Below are positions 40,249 to 46,805 of a stretch of 64,000 nt of DNA, piece by piece. Numbering within the stretch: the stretch's first letter is position 1; the number at the start of each line of letters is the position of its first letter. Source of the stretch: Anaerolineae bacterium (lineage in GTDB: Bacteria; Chloroflexota; Anaerolineae; Aggregatilineales; Phototrophicaceae); assembly GCA_022841825.1 (NCBI GenBank), contig JALHQT010000002.1, positions 767,276 through 831,275 on the forward strand. Reading direction: 5' to 3'. A program made the translations under genes and the position numbers. The notes beneath the pieces were generated by a model. That model did no database searches and had not been told where the DNA came from. It saw only the letters and a list, made by a program, of their open reading frames with translations.

Positions 40249-40269
40249 GGGGCGCAGCGTGTGCGCCCC
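40249..40269. terminator. Hairpin below the Ig-repeat gene, copy 1
   Basis: GGGGCGCA GCGTG TGCGCCCC, an 8-base perfect stem. It is followed by AGGAGTATCGATGATGTTAC, and the whole block is repeated at 42355-42375 below the sibling gene. Without a clear T-run on the minus strand, so termination is only probable. Confidence 0.55.
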
Positions 40270-40305
40270 AGCCAGGAGTATCGATGATGTTACAAGTGCC
40301 TGCGG

Positions 40306-42174
40306 TTACTTGTCGCCGCCTGCCGCGCCTGCGCTGCTCGCGCCCACCTCGCCGACCAGCACGACGGTGCCGGGCGACCAGATGGTCGTGCAGGTGAAGC
40401 CGGGGAAGGCGTCGGTCGTCCAGGCATTCCATTCGCGTGGGATGCGCGGCGCGTCGGCTGCGGAGAGGAAGATCATCCTGCCGCTGCCCTGCAGGCAGAT
40501 GTTGACGCCCGCCACGAAGCTGCTGCCACCATTGAAGACATCGACCGCGCCGATGACGCCCATGCCGAGGGTCGTCGTGTCGCCGATGTTCTCTTCCTGG
40601 GTGAGCTGTCCACCGAGCCAGGTCATGTAGTCGCCCTGTGCGGCGAGCATACGGCAGCTCACGGCGGAGCGGTCGGCTTCGTGCTCGAAGTTGCTGCGCA
40701 GCAGGTCATTGCCCGCGCCGTTCATGTCGCCGCACAAGCCGGGCGGCGGCGGGGTCGGGACTGCGGCGACCGCGACGGGCACGGCGGTGACGACGAGGTC
40801 GAAGGTTTGCGTCGCATCGGGCGCGACGCCGTTGCTGGCGGTGGCGATGAGCCCCGCGCTGGTGCCGACGGTGGTCGGCGTGCCGCTGAGGGTGGCGGTG
40901 CCTGCGTCGAAGGTCAGCCCGGCGGGGAGCGTGCCCGTCAGGGTGATGGTCGGGGCAGGGTTACCGATGGCGGTGAAGGTGTGACTGTAGGGCACGCCGA
41001 GGGTCGCGGCAGGCGGCGCGGCGCTGGTGAAGGTGGGCGCAGCGGGTGCGGGATTGATGAGGAGGTCGAACGACTGCGTCGCATCCGGGTTGACGCCGTT
41101 GGCGGCTGTGAAGAGCAGCCCTGTGCTGGTGCCCGCGGCGGTCGGCGTGCCGCTGATGGTGGCGGTGCCCGGGTCGAAGGTCAGCCCGGCGGGCAGCGTG
41201 CCCGTCAGGGATGCGGTTGGGGCGGGGTAGCCCGTAAATGTGAAGGTGTGGCTGTAGGGCACGCCGACGACACCAGACCCTGGCGCGCCGCTGGTGATAG
41301 CGGGGGCGACTGATGGGTCAATGACGGTGAGGTCGAAGTTCTGCGTCGCATTCGGGTTGACGCCGTTGTTGGCGGTGGCGATGAGACCCATGCTGGTGAC
41401 CGCGGCAGTCGGCGTGCCGCTGATGGTGGCGGTGCCCGCGTTGAAGGTCAGCCCGGCAGGGAGCGTGCCTGTCAGGGAGAAGGTCGGGGCGGGGTCGCCG
41501 CTGGCGGTGAAGGTGTGGCTGTAGGGCACGCCGAGGGTCGCGGCGGGCGGCGCGGCGCTGGTGAAGGCGGGCGCGGTGACGGTCGTCACAGTGATCGACC
41601 AACCCGTGAAAGTGCCGATGTCAGTGGCTTGGTCGTCCCAGACATAGAGTGACCAGGTACCGTTGGGGTCCAACCCATTGAAGACGGAGAGCGTCGTCCC
41701 ATAAGGTGCCGTGGGCGACGGTGCCAAATTAAAGTCGGTTCCACCATCATTGCCGGAGTAGTTTGACGGGCGAAACGTCCCCGTTGTCAGGATTAGGGAG
41801 TTCGGAAGCGTCCCTGCTGCCGCGTCGCTGATGGTCAGGTTCACACCGCTGACGTCAGGGCAGCCGCCCGAGTCGGACATGAGCAGGACATCCGCGCCGG
41901 TCGGTCCGACCAGCACAATGTCCAGGTCGTCCGGACAGGTGTGGGTCAAGCCGGACAAGGTCGCCGTGACCTGGGTGACGATACCGGTTAGCCCGGAGAC
42001 GCTGATGGTCGAAGGGTAGGGGTTGGCGATCCCTGCCGTTCCAGTTGCCGGGGTGGTGATGCCACCGCCGTTAAAGGTGTTGGTCGCGGCGAATGCCGGT
42101 GCGCTCATGAGGAGCAGCCCAGCCAGCAGGACGAGTATGAGCGATAAGGACTTGATCAAGCTGCGCGAAATCAT
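40306..42174 (-). CDS. Secreted protein: proprotein-convertase-P-like domain, Ig repeats, Cys-rich C-terminal domain (copy 1)
   Basis: 622 residues. Signal peptide MISRSLIKSLSLILVLLAGL (cleavage near AFAA); a P-domain-like region at about 35-195 (HTCPDDLDIVLVGPTGADVL, LDPNGTWSLYVWDD, GTFTGWSITVTT). Three tandem putative Ig-like (He_PIG) repeats of about 90 residues follow (ATLGVPYSHTFTASGDPAPT, LPAGLTF, ATISGTPT). The last 150 residues are a cysteine-containing domain I do not recognise (MNGAGNDLLRSNFEHEADRS, CTTIWSPGTVVLVGEV). It is an exported adhesin-like protein. A close paralogue lies directly upstream. Confidence 0.88.
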   Translation of the reverse strand: MISRSLIKSLSLILVLLAGLLLMSAPAFAATNTFNGGGITTPATGTAGIANPYPSTISVSGLTGIVTQVTATLSGLTHTCPDDLDIVLVGPTGADVLLMSDSGGCPDVSGVNLTISDAAAGTLPNSLILTTGTFRPSNYSGNDGGTDFNLAPSPTAPYGTTLSVFNGLDPNGTWSLYVWDDQATDIGTFTGWSITVTTVTAPAFTSAAPPAATLGVPYSHTFTASGDPAPTFSLTGTLPAGLTFNAGTATISGTPTAAVTSMGLIATANNGVNPNATQNFDLTVIDPSVAPAITSGAPGSGVVGVPYSHTFTFTGYPAPTASLTGTLPAGLTFDPGTATISGTPTAAGTSTGLLFTAANGVNPDATQSFDLLINPAPAAPTFTSAAPPAATLGVPYSHTFTAIGNPAPTITLTGTLPAGLTFDAGTATLSGTPTTVGTSAGLIATASNGVAPDATQTFDLVVTAVPVAVAAVPTPPPPGLCGDMNGAGNDLLRSNFEHEADRSAVSCRMLAAQGDYMTWLGGQLTQEENIGDTTTLGMGVIGAVDVFNGGSSFVAGVNICLQGSGRMIFLSAADAPRIPREWNAWTTDAFPGFTCTTIWSPGTVVLVGEVGASSAGAAGGDK

Positions 42175-42354
42175 ATGGGGTTCGACCTCCGTGCAATAAA
42201 CAGATGTGAATCACAAAACAGCCATCTGTATATCGCTGATCGTCAGGCGAAACGGCGCGCGCGAAAATTAAGAACTATGAATTAATCGTGAATTATTCCC
42301 GCACTGGAACCTAGGAAGCGTGCGGCAAATCTGCCCTATGCCATTAAACAGCAT

Positions 42355-42375
42355 GGGGCGCAGCATGTGCGCCCC
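42355..42375. terminator. Hairpin below the Ig-repeat gene, copy 2
   Basis: GGGGCGCA GCATG TGCGCCCC, then the same GGAGTATCGATGATGTTACA tail as at 40249. Its duplication together with the gene shows that the duplicated unit includes the 3' flank. Confidence 0.55.
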
Positions 42376-42411
42376 AGCCCGGAGTATCGATGATGTTACA
42401 AGTGCCCCTGC

Positions 42412-44256
42412 TTACTCCTCGCTCACCTCGCCGACCAGCACGACGGTGCCGGGCGACCAGATGGTCGTGCAGGTGAAGCCGGGGAAGGCGTCGGTCGTCC
42501 AGGCATTCCACTCACGGGGGATGCGCGGCGCGTCCGCTGCGGAGAGGAAGATCATCCTGCCGCTGCCTTGGAGGCAGATGTTGACGCCCGCCACGAAGCT
42601 GCTGCCGCCGTTGAAGACATCGACCGCGCCGATGACGCCCATGCCGAGGGTGGTCGTGTCGCCGATGTTCTCTTCCTGGGTGAGCTGTCCACCGAGCCAG
42701 GTCATGTAATCGCCCTGTGCGGCGAGCATACGGCAGCTCACGGCGGAGCGGTCGGCTTCGTGCTCGAAGTTGCTGCGCAGCAGGTCATTGCCCGCGCCGT
42801 TCATGTCGGCGCAAAGACCGGGCGGCGGCGGGGTCGGGGCAGCGGCGACTGCTGTAGGTGTCACAGGTACCGCGCTGATCACCAGGTCGAAGGTTTGCGT
42901 CGCATCCGGCGAGACGCCGTTGCTGGCGGTGGCGATGAGACCCGCGCTGGTGCCCGCGGTGGTCGGCGTGCCGCTGATGGTGGCGGTGCCTGGGTCGAAG
43001 GTCAGCCCGGCGGGGAGCGTGCCCGCCAGAGAGAAGGTCGGGGCGGGGCTGCCGATGGCGGTGAAGGTGTGGCTGTACGCTGTACCGACGATACCCGACG
43101 CTGGCGCGGCGCTCGTGATAGTGGGCGCGCCGGGCGCGGCGGCGATGAGAAGGTCGAACGACTGCGTCGCATCCGGCGAGACGCCGTTGGCGGCTGTGAA
43201 GAGCAGCCCGCTGCTGGTGCCCGCGGTGGTCGGCGTGCCGCTGATGGTGGCGGTGCCCGCGTCGAAGGTCAGCCCGGCGGGCAGCGTGCCCGTGAGAGAT
43301 GCGGTTGGCACGGGATTGCCCGTAAAGGTGAAGGTGTGGGTGTAGGGCACGCCGACGACACCCGATGCTGGCGCTCCGCTGGTGATAGCGGGGGCGACTG
43401 ACGCAGGGTTGACGACGAGGCTGAAATTCTGGGTCGCATTCGGCGCGACGCCGTTGTTGGCGGTGGCGCTCAAGCCTGCGCTGGTGCCTGCGGCGGTTGG
43501 CGTGCCGCTGATGGTGGCGGTGCCTGGGTTGAAGGTCAGCCCGGCGGGGAGTGCGCCCGTCAGGGAGAAGGTCGGGGCGGGGTCGCCGCTGGCGGTGAAG
43601 GTATGGCTGTAGGGCACGCCGACAGTCGCGGCGGGTGGCGCGGCGCTGGTGAAGGCGGGCGCGGTGACGGTCGTAATGGTGATCGACCAGCCGGTGAAGA
43701 TGCCGCTGTTATTTGTGGTATCGTCCCACACAAAGAGCGACCAGGTGCCGTTAGCATTCAGCGTATTGAAGACGGAGAGCGCCGTCCCATAGGGCCCGGC
43801 GGGCGCTGGCGGAATAAGAGCGTCGCTGTCAGCGCCCGTATAGTTGGCTGGGCTATATGTCCCTGTCGTCAGCATCGTTGAGTTCGGAAGCGGGGACGCC
43901 GCTGAGTCGCTGATGGTCAGGTTCACACCGCTGACGTCTGGGCAGCCGCCCGCGTCCGACATGAGCAGGACATTCGCGTTGGTCGGTCCGACGAGCACAA
44001 TGTCCAGGTCGTCCGGACAGTTGTGGGTCAAACCGAACAGAGTCACCGTCACCTGGGAGATTGTGCCTGCCATCCCGGAGACGCTGATCGTCGAGGGGTA
44101 GGGGTTGGCAACGCCCAGCGTACCAGATGTCGGGGTTGTGATACCACCGCCGGTGAAGGTGCTGGTCGCGGCGAATGCCGGGGCGCTCATGAGGAGCAGC
44201 CCAGCTACCAGCACGAGCATGAGCGATAAGGATTTGACAAAGCTGCGCAAAAGCAT
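42412..44256 (-). CDS. Secreted protein: P-like domain, Ig repeats, Cys-rich C-terminal domain (copy 2)
   Basis: 614 residues from the ATG at 44256 (GGAGG 11 bases upstream; a TTG 21 bases earlier would overlap that site). Same order as copy 1: signal peptide, P-domain-like region (HNCPDDLDIVLVGPTNANVL), three Ig-like repeats (ATVGVPYSHTFTASGDPAPT and variants), then the C-terminal domain, which is nearly identical to that of copy 1 over about 150 residues while the N-terminal part is more diverged. The gradient suggests gene conversion at the 3' ends. Confidence 0.88.
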   Translation of the reverse strand: MLLRSFVKSLSLMLVLVAGLLLMSAPAFAATSTFTGGGITTPTSGTLGVANPYPSTISVSGMAGTISQVTVTLFGLTHNCPDDLDIVLVGPTNANVLLMSDAGGCPDVSGVNLTISDSAASPLPNSTMLTTGTYSPANYTGADSDALIPPAPAGPYGTALSVFNTLNANGTWSLFVWDDTTNNSGIFTGWSITITTVTAPAFTSAAPPAATVGVPYSHTFTASGDPAPTFSLTGALPAGLTFNPGTATISGTPTAAGTSAGLSATANNGVAPNATQNFSLVVNPASVAPAITSGAPASGVVGVPYTHTFTFTGNPVPTASLTGTLPAGLTFDAGTATISGTPTTAGTSSGLLFTAANGVSPDATQSFDLLIAAAPGAPTITSAAPASGIVGTAYSHTFTAIGSPAPTFSLAGTLPAGLTFDPGTATISGTPTTAGTSAGLIATASNGVSPDATQTFDLVISAVPVTPTAVAAAPTPPPPGLCADMNGAGNDLLRSNFEHEADRSAVSCRMLAAQGDYMTWLGGQLTQEENIGDTTTLGMGVIGAVDVFNGGSSFVAGVNICLQGSGRMIFLSAADAPRIPREWNAWTTDAFPGFTCTTIWSPGTVVLVGEVSEE

Positions 44257-44464: not shown

Positions 44465-44552
44465 AAAATGACAAACGTCATGCGCGCGCTCCGCCGCACC
44501 GCGCTACAATCGCGCACTATTCATATGCCGCGCCGTGCAAGAGGGGGACGTC

Positions 44553-46805
44553 ATGGCAATCACCAAGCAGGATGTATTCGACTATCATCGTCAGGGGCGA
44601 CCGGGCAAGATCGAAGTCACGCCGACCAAGCCGCTCGCCACCCAGCGCGATCTCTCGCTCGCGTACTCGCCCGGCGTCGCCGAGGCGGTGCTGGAAGTCG
44701 AGCGCGATCCATTGACCGCCTATGAGCTGACCGCCAAGTCCAACCTGGTCGCCGTCATCAGCAACGGCACGGCGATCCTCGGTCTGGGAGATCGGGGACC
44801 GCTCGCCTCCAAGCCGGTCATGGAGGGCAAGGGTGTCCTCTTCAAGAAGTTCGCGGATATCGACGTGTTCGACATCGAGATCGATGCCAAGACGCCCGCC
44901 GAGATGATCGCCGTCATCAAGGCGATGGCTCCCACCTTTGGCGGCATCAACCTGGAGGACATCAAAGCGCCGGAATGCTTCGAGGTCGAACGCACGCTGC
45001 GCGAACTCTTGCCGATCCCGGTCTTCCACGACGACCAGCACGGCACGGCGATCATCAGCGGGGCGGCGCTGCTCAACGCCTGCGAGGTGCTGGGCAAGCG
45101 GCTGGATACCCTGCGCGTCGTCATCAACGGCGCGGGTGCCAGCGCGATTGCGTCGGGCGAGTTCTACGTCAACCTCGGCATCCGCCGCGAAAACATCCTG
45201 ATGGTCGATAGCAAGGGTGTGCTCTACGCCGGGCGCGAGGAGAACATCAACGAGTACAAGGCGCGCTTCCTCAATTACACCCATGCGCGCACACTCGAAG
45301 AGGCGCTGGTCGGCGCGGATGTCATGCTGGGTCTATCGGTCGCCGGGTCGGTTACACAGGCGATGGTCGAACGGATGGCACCCAATCCCATCATCTTCGC
45401 GCTGGCGAATCCGACGCCGGAGATCATGCCGGAAGAGGTGCTCGCCGTCCGGTCGGACGCGATCATCGGCACGGGGCGAAGCGATTACGCCAACCAGGTC
45501 AACAACGTCCTTGGCTTCCCGTTCATCTTCCGCGGCGCGCTTGATGTGTACGCGACGACCATCAACGAGGAGATGAAGCTGGCGGCGGCGCGCGGGCTGG
45601 CGGCGCTGGCGCACGAGGATGTGCCGGACAGCGTGCTTTCGGCGTATGGGCTGACCTCGCTCAAGTTCGGGCGCGATTATCTGATCCCCAAGCCGCTCGA
45701 CCCGCGTGTGCTCTTATGGCTCGCGCCCGCCGTCGCCGAAGCCGCCATGCGCACCGGCGTGGCGCGGCGCAGCATCGATCTTGACGCCTATCGTGAGGAG
45801 CTGATCCAGCGCCAGGGCGCGGGGCAGCAGGTGCGCAACCAGATCATCAGCAAGGCGAAGCTGGGCGACAAGAAGCGCATCGTCTTCCCCGAAGGCGACG
45901 ACCCCAAGATCATCCGCGCGGCGGCGCAGGTACAGGAGGAAGGCATCGGCATCCCGATTTTGCTCGGTCGCCCGGAGGACGTGCGCGCGCAGATTGCGGA
46001 ACTAGGGCTGACGTTCGACCCGCAGATCTACGAACCAAGCGTCGAGATCGACAAGCGTCGCGAGTATGCGGATATCTATTACGCGATGCGCCAGCGCAAG
46101 GGCATCAGCAAGACGACCGCCGACCGCCTGGCGGGCAGCCGCATGACCTACGGTTTGATGATGCTGCAAAACGGCGACGCCGACGCCTATCTGAACGGGC
46201 GCTCGCACGAATACCCGGACGTGATCCGCCCGGCGCTGCAAATCTTCCACACCCGCCCCGGCGCGCACATCGCCAGCGGCTTGTACATCATGGTCATCAA
46301 ACGGCGCGTCTACTTCTTCACCGATGCGACCGTCAACATCGACCCCGACGCCGAAACACTGTCCGAGATCGCCATCCTGGCGGCAGATTTCGCGCGCACG
46401 CTGGGCATCGAGCCGCGCGTCGCCATGCTGTCGTTCTCGAATTTCGGCTCCGCGCCGCATCCGTTCTCGAACAAGGTGCGCGATGCCGCCCACCTCGTGC
46501 AGACCAAGCGCCCGGACATCGCCTGCGATGGCGAGATGCAGGCGGATACCGCTGTCATCCCCGACATTGTCGAGAACCGCTTCCCGTTCAGCCAGGTGCG
46601 CGACGCCAACATCCTGGTCTTCCCCGATCTGCAAAGCGCCAATGTCTCGTACAAGCTGCTCTCGCGGCTGACGGACGCCGAGGCGATTGGACCGATCCTC
46701 CTGGGCGTCGGCGCACCGATCCACGTCTTGCAGGCGGGCGACGATGTGGAGGACATCGTGGCGATGGCAGCCGTCGCGGCGGTCGATGCGCAGAGCCGAG
46801 GGTGA
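44553..46805 (+). CDS. maeB: NADP-dependent malic enzyme with phosphotransacetylase-like domain
   Basis: 750 residues. Decarboxylates malate to pyruvate with NADP. The N-terminal malic domain ([53 protein letters not shown]) and NAD-binding domain ([30 protein letters not shown]) are followed from about residue 430 by a phosphate acetyl/butyryltransferase-like domain ([26 protein letters not shown]-like [13 protein letters not shown]), the usual MaeB fusion, where the tail is regulatory. GAGGGGG upstream supports the ATG at 44553. The next gene starts one base after the stop. Confidence 0.94.

Follow-up and report, generated by a model that had tools for sequence, protein, structure and literature searches.

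Two genes, A and B, lie in tandem on the minus strand of the window (the whole stretch of 64,000 nucleotides analysed here, positions 767,276 to 831,275 of contig JALHQT010000002.1 of the Anaerolineae bacterium assembly GCA_022841825.1). The proteins they encode have a common build: a signal peptide (AFA-A, as seen in the sequence), a P-domain, three He_PIG immunoglobulin-like (Ig-like) repeats, a proline-rich linker and a C-terminal tail of ~130 amino acids (aa), which is the subject of this work. For gene B, the open reading frame (ORF) as listed begins at TTG 44277, upstream of ATG 44256, and a sequence resembling a ribosome-binding site, GACGGAGG, is present upstream of the start. Matches to P_proprotein (PF01483) and He_PIG (PF05345) exceed the curated cut-offs in both genes. 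These two families make up the fronts of both proteins but leave the tail unexplained, and other proteins that bear the tail have other fronts.

A sequence-only reading of the locus had proposed that the tail may be a new cell-surface or sorting domain. No known domain was recognised in it: the tail has no match in Pfam, NCBIfam, PHROGs or PDB sequences, and profile search gave the same result. In NCBIfam, zero families were hit at E ≤ 1, including sorting models of the type IX secretion system (T9SS) and PEP-CTERM type. A paper describing the domain was not found in the open-access literature. Judging by these sequence comparisons, the tail is a real, unnamed and probably extracellular domain of ~130 residues. 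As a profile, it would allow hundreds of surface proteins to be annotated in a Chloroflexota order that is known chiefly through metagenomes.

Distribution and anatomy of the tail domain

For genome comparisons we used a profile, A1, built from 30 aligned tail sequences; in this alignment the window tail is 31–49% identical to the distant members. The genome of the window contains six tail copies. Within its order, Aggregatilineales, 96 of 154 genomes are positive with profile A1 (families f1, f3 and f7), and the maximum is at least 22 copies per genome; at most 26 candidates were scored per genome, so copy counts are possibly too low. A sample of the class has 14 positive genomes among 346, and each of the 14 belongs to the same order, while the single positive genome in a sample of 301 from the phylum is the genome of the window itself. 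Beyond the phylum, the search consisted only of a scan of 84,980 species genomes with the pattern of one subfamily. It returned 21 stretches, 18 of which are relatives; these come from records with Anaerolineae, Anaerolinea, Aggregatilineales or Chloroflexi as title, along with two Pleurocapsa contigs. These last two records (JAHHHY010000009.1 and JAHHHY010000011.1), titled as the cyanobacterium Pleurocapsa minor, match G012, a genome of the window's genus, and are probably a mislabelled metagenome-assembled genome. As far as tested by such searches, the tail domain is confined to one order of Anaerolineae. A mobile or viral origin was considered and rejected: the tail matches nothing in plasmids, phages or viral contigs, and its model likewise nothing in a viral fold library at E ≤ 0.001.

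In a tree of tails with 57 rows, the copies from the window's own genome are scattered. A separate observation concerns genus g17, where all listed genomes but one contain from 6 to at least 22 tail copies. Three of its loci (L112, L116 and L118) carry tandem arrays of three small genes, each coding for a signal peptide, a variable front, the tail and SH3b; as their sequences read, these arrays are a fixed-tail, variable-front system.

The tail is built around four cysteines. The sequence-only reading had given four or five from MNGAG onward; the actual count is three, or four with the cysteine of the preceding 'LC'. C3, C4 and the glycine before the last strand are each found in 102 of 102 domains. 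Among domains with both positions aligned (rows gapped at either were set aside), C1 and C2 are both present in 39 and both missing in 9 of the first set, with none of the 48 discordant; both are present in 21 of 22 in the second set, with one discordant. In L112 and L116, which belong to the second set, C1- and C2-like cysteines missed by the profile alignment can be recognised by eye. Because C1 and C2 co-occur and C3 and C4 are invariant, we infer two disulfides, C1–C2 and C3–C4. The conserved polar set is small once cysteines, glycines, prolines, a single Asp, a pair of Thr and a few Arg are set aside.

The position of the domain within proteins is bimodal. On ORFs with a complete C end, the remainder past the domain is at most 24 aa in 32 of 55 proteins and at least 81 aa in the other 23 in the first set, and at most 27 aa in 17 of 45 and at least 71 aa in 28 in the second set, with no values between. 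According to the tail tree, the terminal extension was gained or lost ~7 times, at least three of which are forced by supported branches. SH3_3 (PF08239) and LysM (PF01476), which are often wall-binding, co-occur with the domain in 20 and 2 of 56 proteins, respectively; where a protein scanned individually has such a match, it falls in the terminal extension. SH3_3 and LysM occupy the same C-terminal zone as the tail domain, often directly downstream of it, but the tail itself matches neither profile.

The same 56 proteins also contain Calx-beta (9), P_proprotein (8), Big_9 (5), He_PIG (4) and Beta_helix (4); fronts of relatives include Calx-beta, P-domain, cadherin-like/Big_9, He_PIG, PKD, fn3, beta-helix and cohesin modules. 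At the other extreme, L005 (282 aa) and L034 (275 aa) are minimal proteins with little beyond a signal peptide, the tail domain and SH3b. The tail was looked for on other exported proteins and is present on many: export-signal-like N ends, with a hydrophobic stretch within the first 150 aa, were found in 34 of 38 ORFs with a complete N end. An LPxTG motif or a segment resembling a transmembrane (TM) helix follows the domain in none of the 56 proteins, protein A among them (one C end is cut by a contig end), and the C end of protein B, read in the sequence, lacks an LPxTG plus TM segment. One relative stands apart: a 2134-aa protein (L053:1-6402) starts with a PP2C-type phosphatase domain, followed by PKD and cadherin-like repeats and then the tail. 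It has a TM-like stretch near residues 293–319 and is possibly an inside-outside signalling protein.

Table 1. Features of the tandem genes (positions in the window)
Feature	Position	Strand	Remarks
Gene A	42174->40306	minus	622 aa; from ORF list; PF05345 E 1.2e-16, PF01483 E 1.3e-7
P-domain region of A	41581..42084	minus	PF01483; limits approximate
Three He_PIG Ig repeats of A	40786..41580	minus	267-nt period
Tail domain of A	40345..40740	minus	residues 479-610; 4 cysteines
3′ hairpin of A	40249..40269	minus	8-bp stem; intrinsic-terminator-like
Gene B	44256->42412	minus	614 aa from ATG 44256; PF05345 E 1.1e-18, PF01483 E 7.1e-6
Three He_PIG Ig repeats of B	42874..43668	minus	267-nt period; limits approximate
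Tail domain of B	42424..42819	minus	128 residues identical to A; 10 synonymous differences
3′ hairpin of B	42355..42375	minus	8-bp stem; intrinsic-terminator-like

Tail conservation and the duplicated unit

The near-identity of the C-terminal parts of A and B claimed by the sequence-only reading holds for 128 consecutive residues (483–610 of A), in which only 10 synonymous nucleotide differences were found, but not for the last residues past GEV, which are wholly different. Its companion claim, that the N-terminal domains have diverged, is correct in that they are less alike than the tail, although this divergence amounts to ~79% amino-acid identity outside the tail. Synonymous sites are not saturated across the tail: synonymous divergence (dS) is 0.14, nonsynonymous divergence (dN) 0.007 and dN/dS 0.05, compared with 0.35, 0.12 and 0.36 for the body of the two proteins. 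The difference between tail and body is significant for both synonymous (Fisher test, p = 0.002) and nonsynonymous changes (p = 1e-11).

Two causes of this likeness had been named beforehand, gene conversion and strong constraint, and the data uphold the latter while making the former dispensable. In each of 13 further tandem pairs, from five other loci, the tails resemble each other more closely than the bodies do (e.g. 0.70 versus 0.48 at L070). In cross-species pairs with tails more than 75% identical, dS is lower in the tail than in the body wherever both could be computed: 0.16 versus 0.285 for L019/L021, 0.59 versus 1.36 for L025/L022, 0.43 versus 1.27 for L022/L026, and 0.79 versus 1.11 for L012/L010. 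In this cross-species comparison several dS values are saturated or depend on an uncertain body alignment, three pairs have no tail or no body dS, and the only clean close pair with a body is L019/L021. Since the pattern recurs across species and in all of the tandem pairs, constraint would be its general cause; since genes of other species show a lower tail dS as well, gene conversion is not required. We therefore favour constraint as the explanation for most of the likeness of the A and B tails.

A recent conversion tract that overwrote the tail together with the 3′ hairpin is possible as the main cause, yet we consider it doubtful. It is suggested by the difference in dS between tail and body, by the longest run of identical codons (32 codons, permutation p = 0.0009), which is located inside the tail, by the shared 66-nt 3′ stretch, whose last 61 nt contain three differences, and by the tail dN/dS of A and B, which is below the 0.09–0.25 of cross-species tails. 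However, the excess of body over tail dS is common to cross-species pairs, dS within the body of A and B is itself uneven (0.19–0.48), and the 3′ stretch may be constrained by terminator function. Moreover, the same gene pair was found in none of the genomes compared, where the best tail identity is 50%. Genome-wide concerted evolution of tails was rejected: the remaining tail copies of the genome are dispersed across the tree, A and B being the only near-identical ones. Going by sequence, the anchor end may have undergone local conversion in two neighbours at another locus (L069:8754-9482 and L069:9577-10818), whose SH3b-type C ends are 90% identical, compared with 57% for their tails and 40% for their fronts.

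The gene and its 3′ hairpin are both duplicated, as the sequence-only reading had noted. Both hairpins match the hairpin pattern perfectly, and a search of the 5.9-Mb genome with an 81-nt query over the 3′ element recovered just two long copies and no third one, the next match being 24 nt long (E 0.009). The pattern itself, GGGGCGCA-N5-TGCGCCCC with up to three mismatches, is common by chance, with at least two matches in 54 of 100 shuffles; therefore the evidence for duplication is the longer match of 77 nt and not the hairpin pattern. Outside the ribosome-binding site the 5′ flanks of A and B are unrelated, which limits the duplicated unit to the gene plus its 3′ hairpin. A structured RNA in the 3′ element was rejected, the Rfam match being chance-level and located elsewhere; the folds of the two elements are ordinary when compared with shuffled sequences (z of –1.3 and –1.8).

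Predicted fold of the tail

AlphaFold2 models were obtained for the window tail (predicted local distance difference test (pLDDT) 81.5, predicted template-modelling score (pTM) 0.79) and for a relative 33% identical to it (pLDDT 92.5, pTM 0.87); both were built on the same 20 sequences. Both are mainly beta with short helices. Foldseek returned no match at E ≤ 0.001 for either model. With VIA-align, ankyrin ZU5 entries ranked at the top for both: 3f59 gave Z 7.4, root-mean-square deviation 3.2 and 111 aligned residues with the first model and Z 7.2, 3.1 and 112 with the second. GAIN domains followed, with CD97 (9mqr) at Z 7.0 and 6.9 and BAI3 at 6.7 and 6.1 in the first and second models, respectively; CELSR1 (Z 5.8) was listed for the first model, and BAI2 and the FIIND domain of NLRP1 (rNLRP1, 7crw), at Z 6.2 each, for the second. 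Glycosidase beta-sandwiches with Z 5–7 are interleaved with these entries. The agreement between the two models is suggestive, and the tail is likely to adopt a ZU5/GAIN-like beta-sandwich fold, but we do not call it a ZU5 domain; with Z below 8 the resemblance may reflect only a common arrangement.

FIIND belongs to the ZU5/GPS superfamily. These domains (ZU5, GAIN-B and FIIND) provide the best fold matches of the two models, but the tail differs from them in having two predicted disulfides and in lacking a ZU5 profile match and either the CxH or the HF/HL-S/T self-cleavage motif. The ZU5 profile PF00791 does not match the tail at E ≤ 1; in 61 genomes of the order it has no match over its cut-off, and its 23 sub-threshold places include no tail locus. 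A His two residues after C4 (CxH) occurs in 0 of 56 rows. According to an earlier study (PMC3482391), ZU5, GPS and Nup98 share a superfamily marked by a CxH motif at the C terminus, and ZU5 domains also occur in bacteria, on surface proteins that carry adhesion modules. If the fold assignment is correct, a superfamily familiar above all from receptors of animals would gain a bacterial branch with the tail.

A fold of this kind raises the idea of a self-cleaving module between ectodomain and wall anchor that sheds the ectodomain, which we regard as very improbable. The two fold lists would suit it, with ankyrin ZU5 first and CD97 and BAI3 present in both and CELSR1, BAI2 and NLRP1 FIIND in one or the other, as would the location of the domain between front and terminal extension in 23 of 55 proteins and a last strand that opens with Gly-Thr. 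On the other side, H-[hydrophobic]-[S/T] is present at the last hairpin in 0 of 56 domains (HxT occurs in two, well before the last hairpin), and cleavage at HxS/T was rejected on this ground for the family as a whole. In addition, 10 of 102 domains have Ile, Leu or Met in place of the Thr/Ser, only a short peptide would be freed in about half of the proteins, and Z stays below 8 even for the better model. SEA domains have a G/S cleavage site, to which the Gly-(Thr/Ser) turn of the tail can be likened. It is a long shot that the tail, as a ZU5/GAIN-fold module placed between an adhesive stalk and an SH3b or LysM end that binds the wall, would cleave itself at this turn, with its invariant Gly, and free the ectodomain under load, as a bacterial counterpart of the adhesion G-protein-coupled receptor release switch.

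Possible role of the domain

We infer, with a confidence just short of even, that the tail is a disulfide-stapled, non-catalytic docking module of the cell surface. This reading is suggested by the location of a fixed end beside the wall-binding zone and by fronts that vary in tandem arrays. The proteins would be exported by the Sec pathway via their signal peptide; the Ig-like repeats would form a stalk, and the fronts would be interchangeable stalk and binding modules, while the tail would keep the stalk attached to the envelope after secretion, either alone or paired with an SH3b anchor. Tandem duplication of the gene with its 3′ hairpin may then have let the front diverge as the docking end stayed fixed. 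The envelope is likely to include a peptidoglycan wall, because the genome has 11 transpeptidase-domain matches and three sortase matches. If docking is correct, the lineage would have an adhesin display of its own, with a bearing on how aggregates and biofilms are built.

The C-terminal cell-surface sorting or anchoring signals of the LPxTG, T9SS and PEP-CTERM types offer a comparison. Like them, the tail is C-terminal on diverse exported proteins, with one tail per lineage and many copies per genome; unlike them, it is a folded 130-aa domain, with neither a following LPxTG or TM-like segment in the 56 proteins nor an NCBIfam match. In view of the minimal proteins, the domain may do more than serve as an address label.

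Several points weigh against docking. The main one concerns L005 and L034, which consist of little more than the domain and SH3b: if SH3b anchors them, the domain may be the business end of the protein rather than its dock. Other anchoring routes exist, as the sortase matches imply, and the low identity to distant members noted above allows for different ligands. An unlikely alternative is that the domain is the working end of the protein: an adhesin head, lectin-like or protein-binding, that is displayed on Ig stalks and anchored through SH3b or some other contact. Besides the minimal proteins, the maximum of at least 22 divergent copies per genome would be expected of a diversifying recognition module, and the generic beta-sandwich matches in the fold lists include carbohydrate-active enzymes and the carbohydrate-binding module CBM29. 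Yet in 13 of 13 tandem pairs it is the domain that is conserved and the front that varies, the opposite of a diversifying head; long binding-type fronts are already present on many of the proteins, and the weak fold matches are generic. That the domain is a structural cap only, a disulfide-locked stalk end that protects against proteases and has no partner, seems to us quite improbable: the small conserved polar set and the strong purifying selection in the absence of an obvious catalytic residue set would fit, but the domain is often non-terminal, with an extension following in 23 of 55 and 28 of 45 proteins, and its expansion within a single order suggests that this lineage contains a partner for it. 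Docking at the cell surface remains the role that we propose.

By profile matches, the neighbours of A and B encode an epimerase-family protein, an aminotransferase-family enzyme, a glyoxalase-like protein, a malic enzyme/phosphotransacetylase fusion and a SIS-domain protein; no link of these neighbouring genes to A and B is visible. The fusion is a single 756-aa ORF (44535-46805) in which malic enzyme is joined to a phosphate acetyltransferase-like domain. Within gene A, the first 30 nt of Ig repeat 3 (40742-41041), counted in units cut on the reversed plus strand, agree with repeat 1 (41276-41575) at 29 of 30 positions, closer than with any repeat of gene B, which suggests recombination between repeats within the gene.

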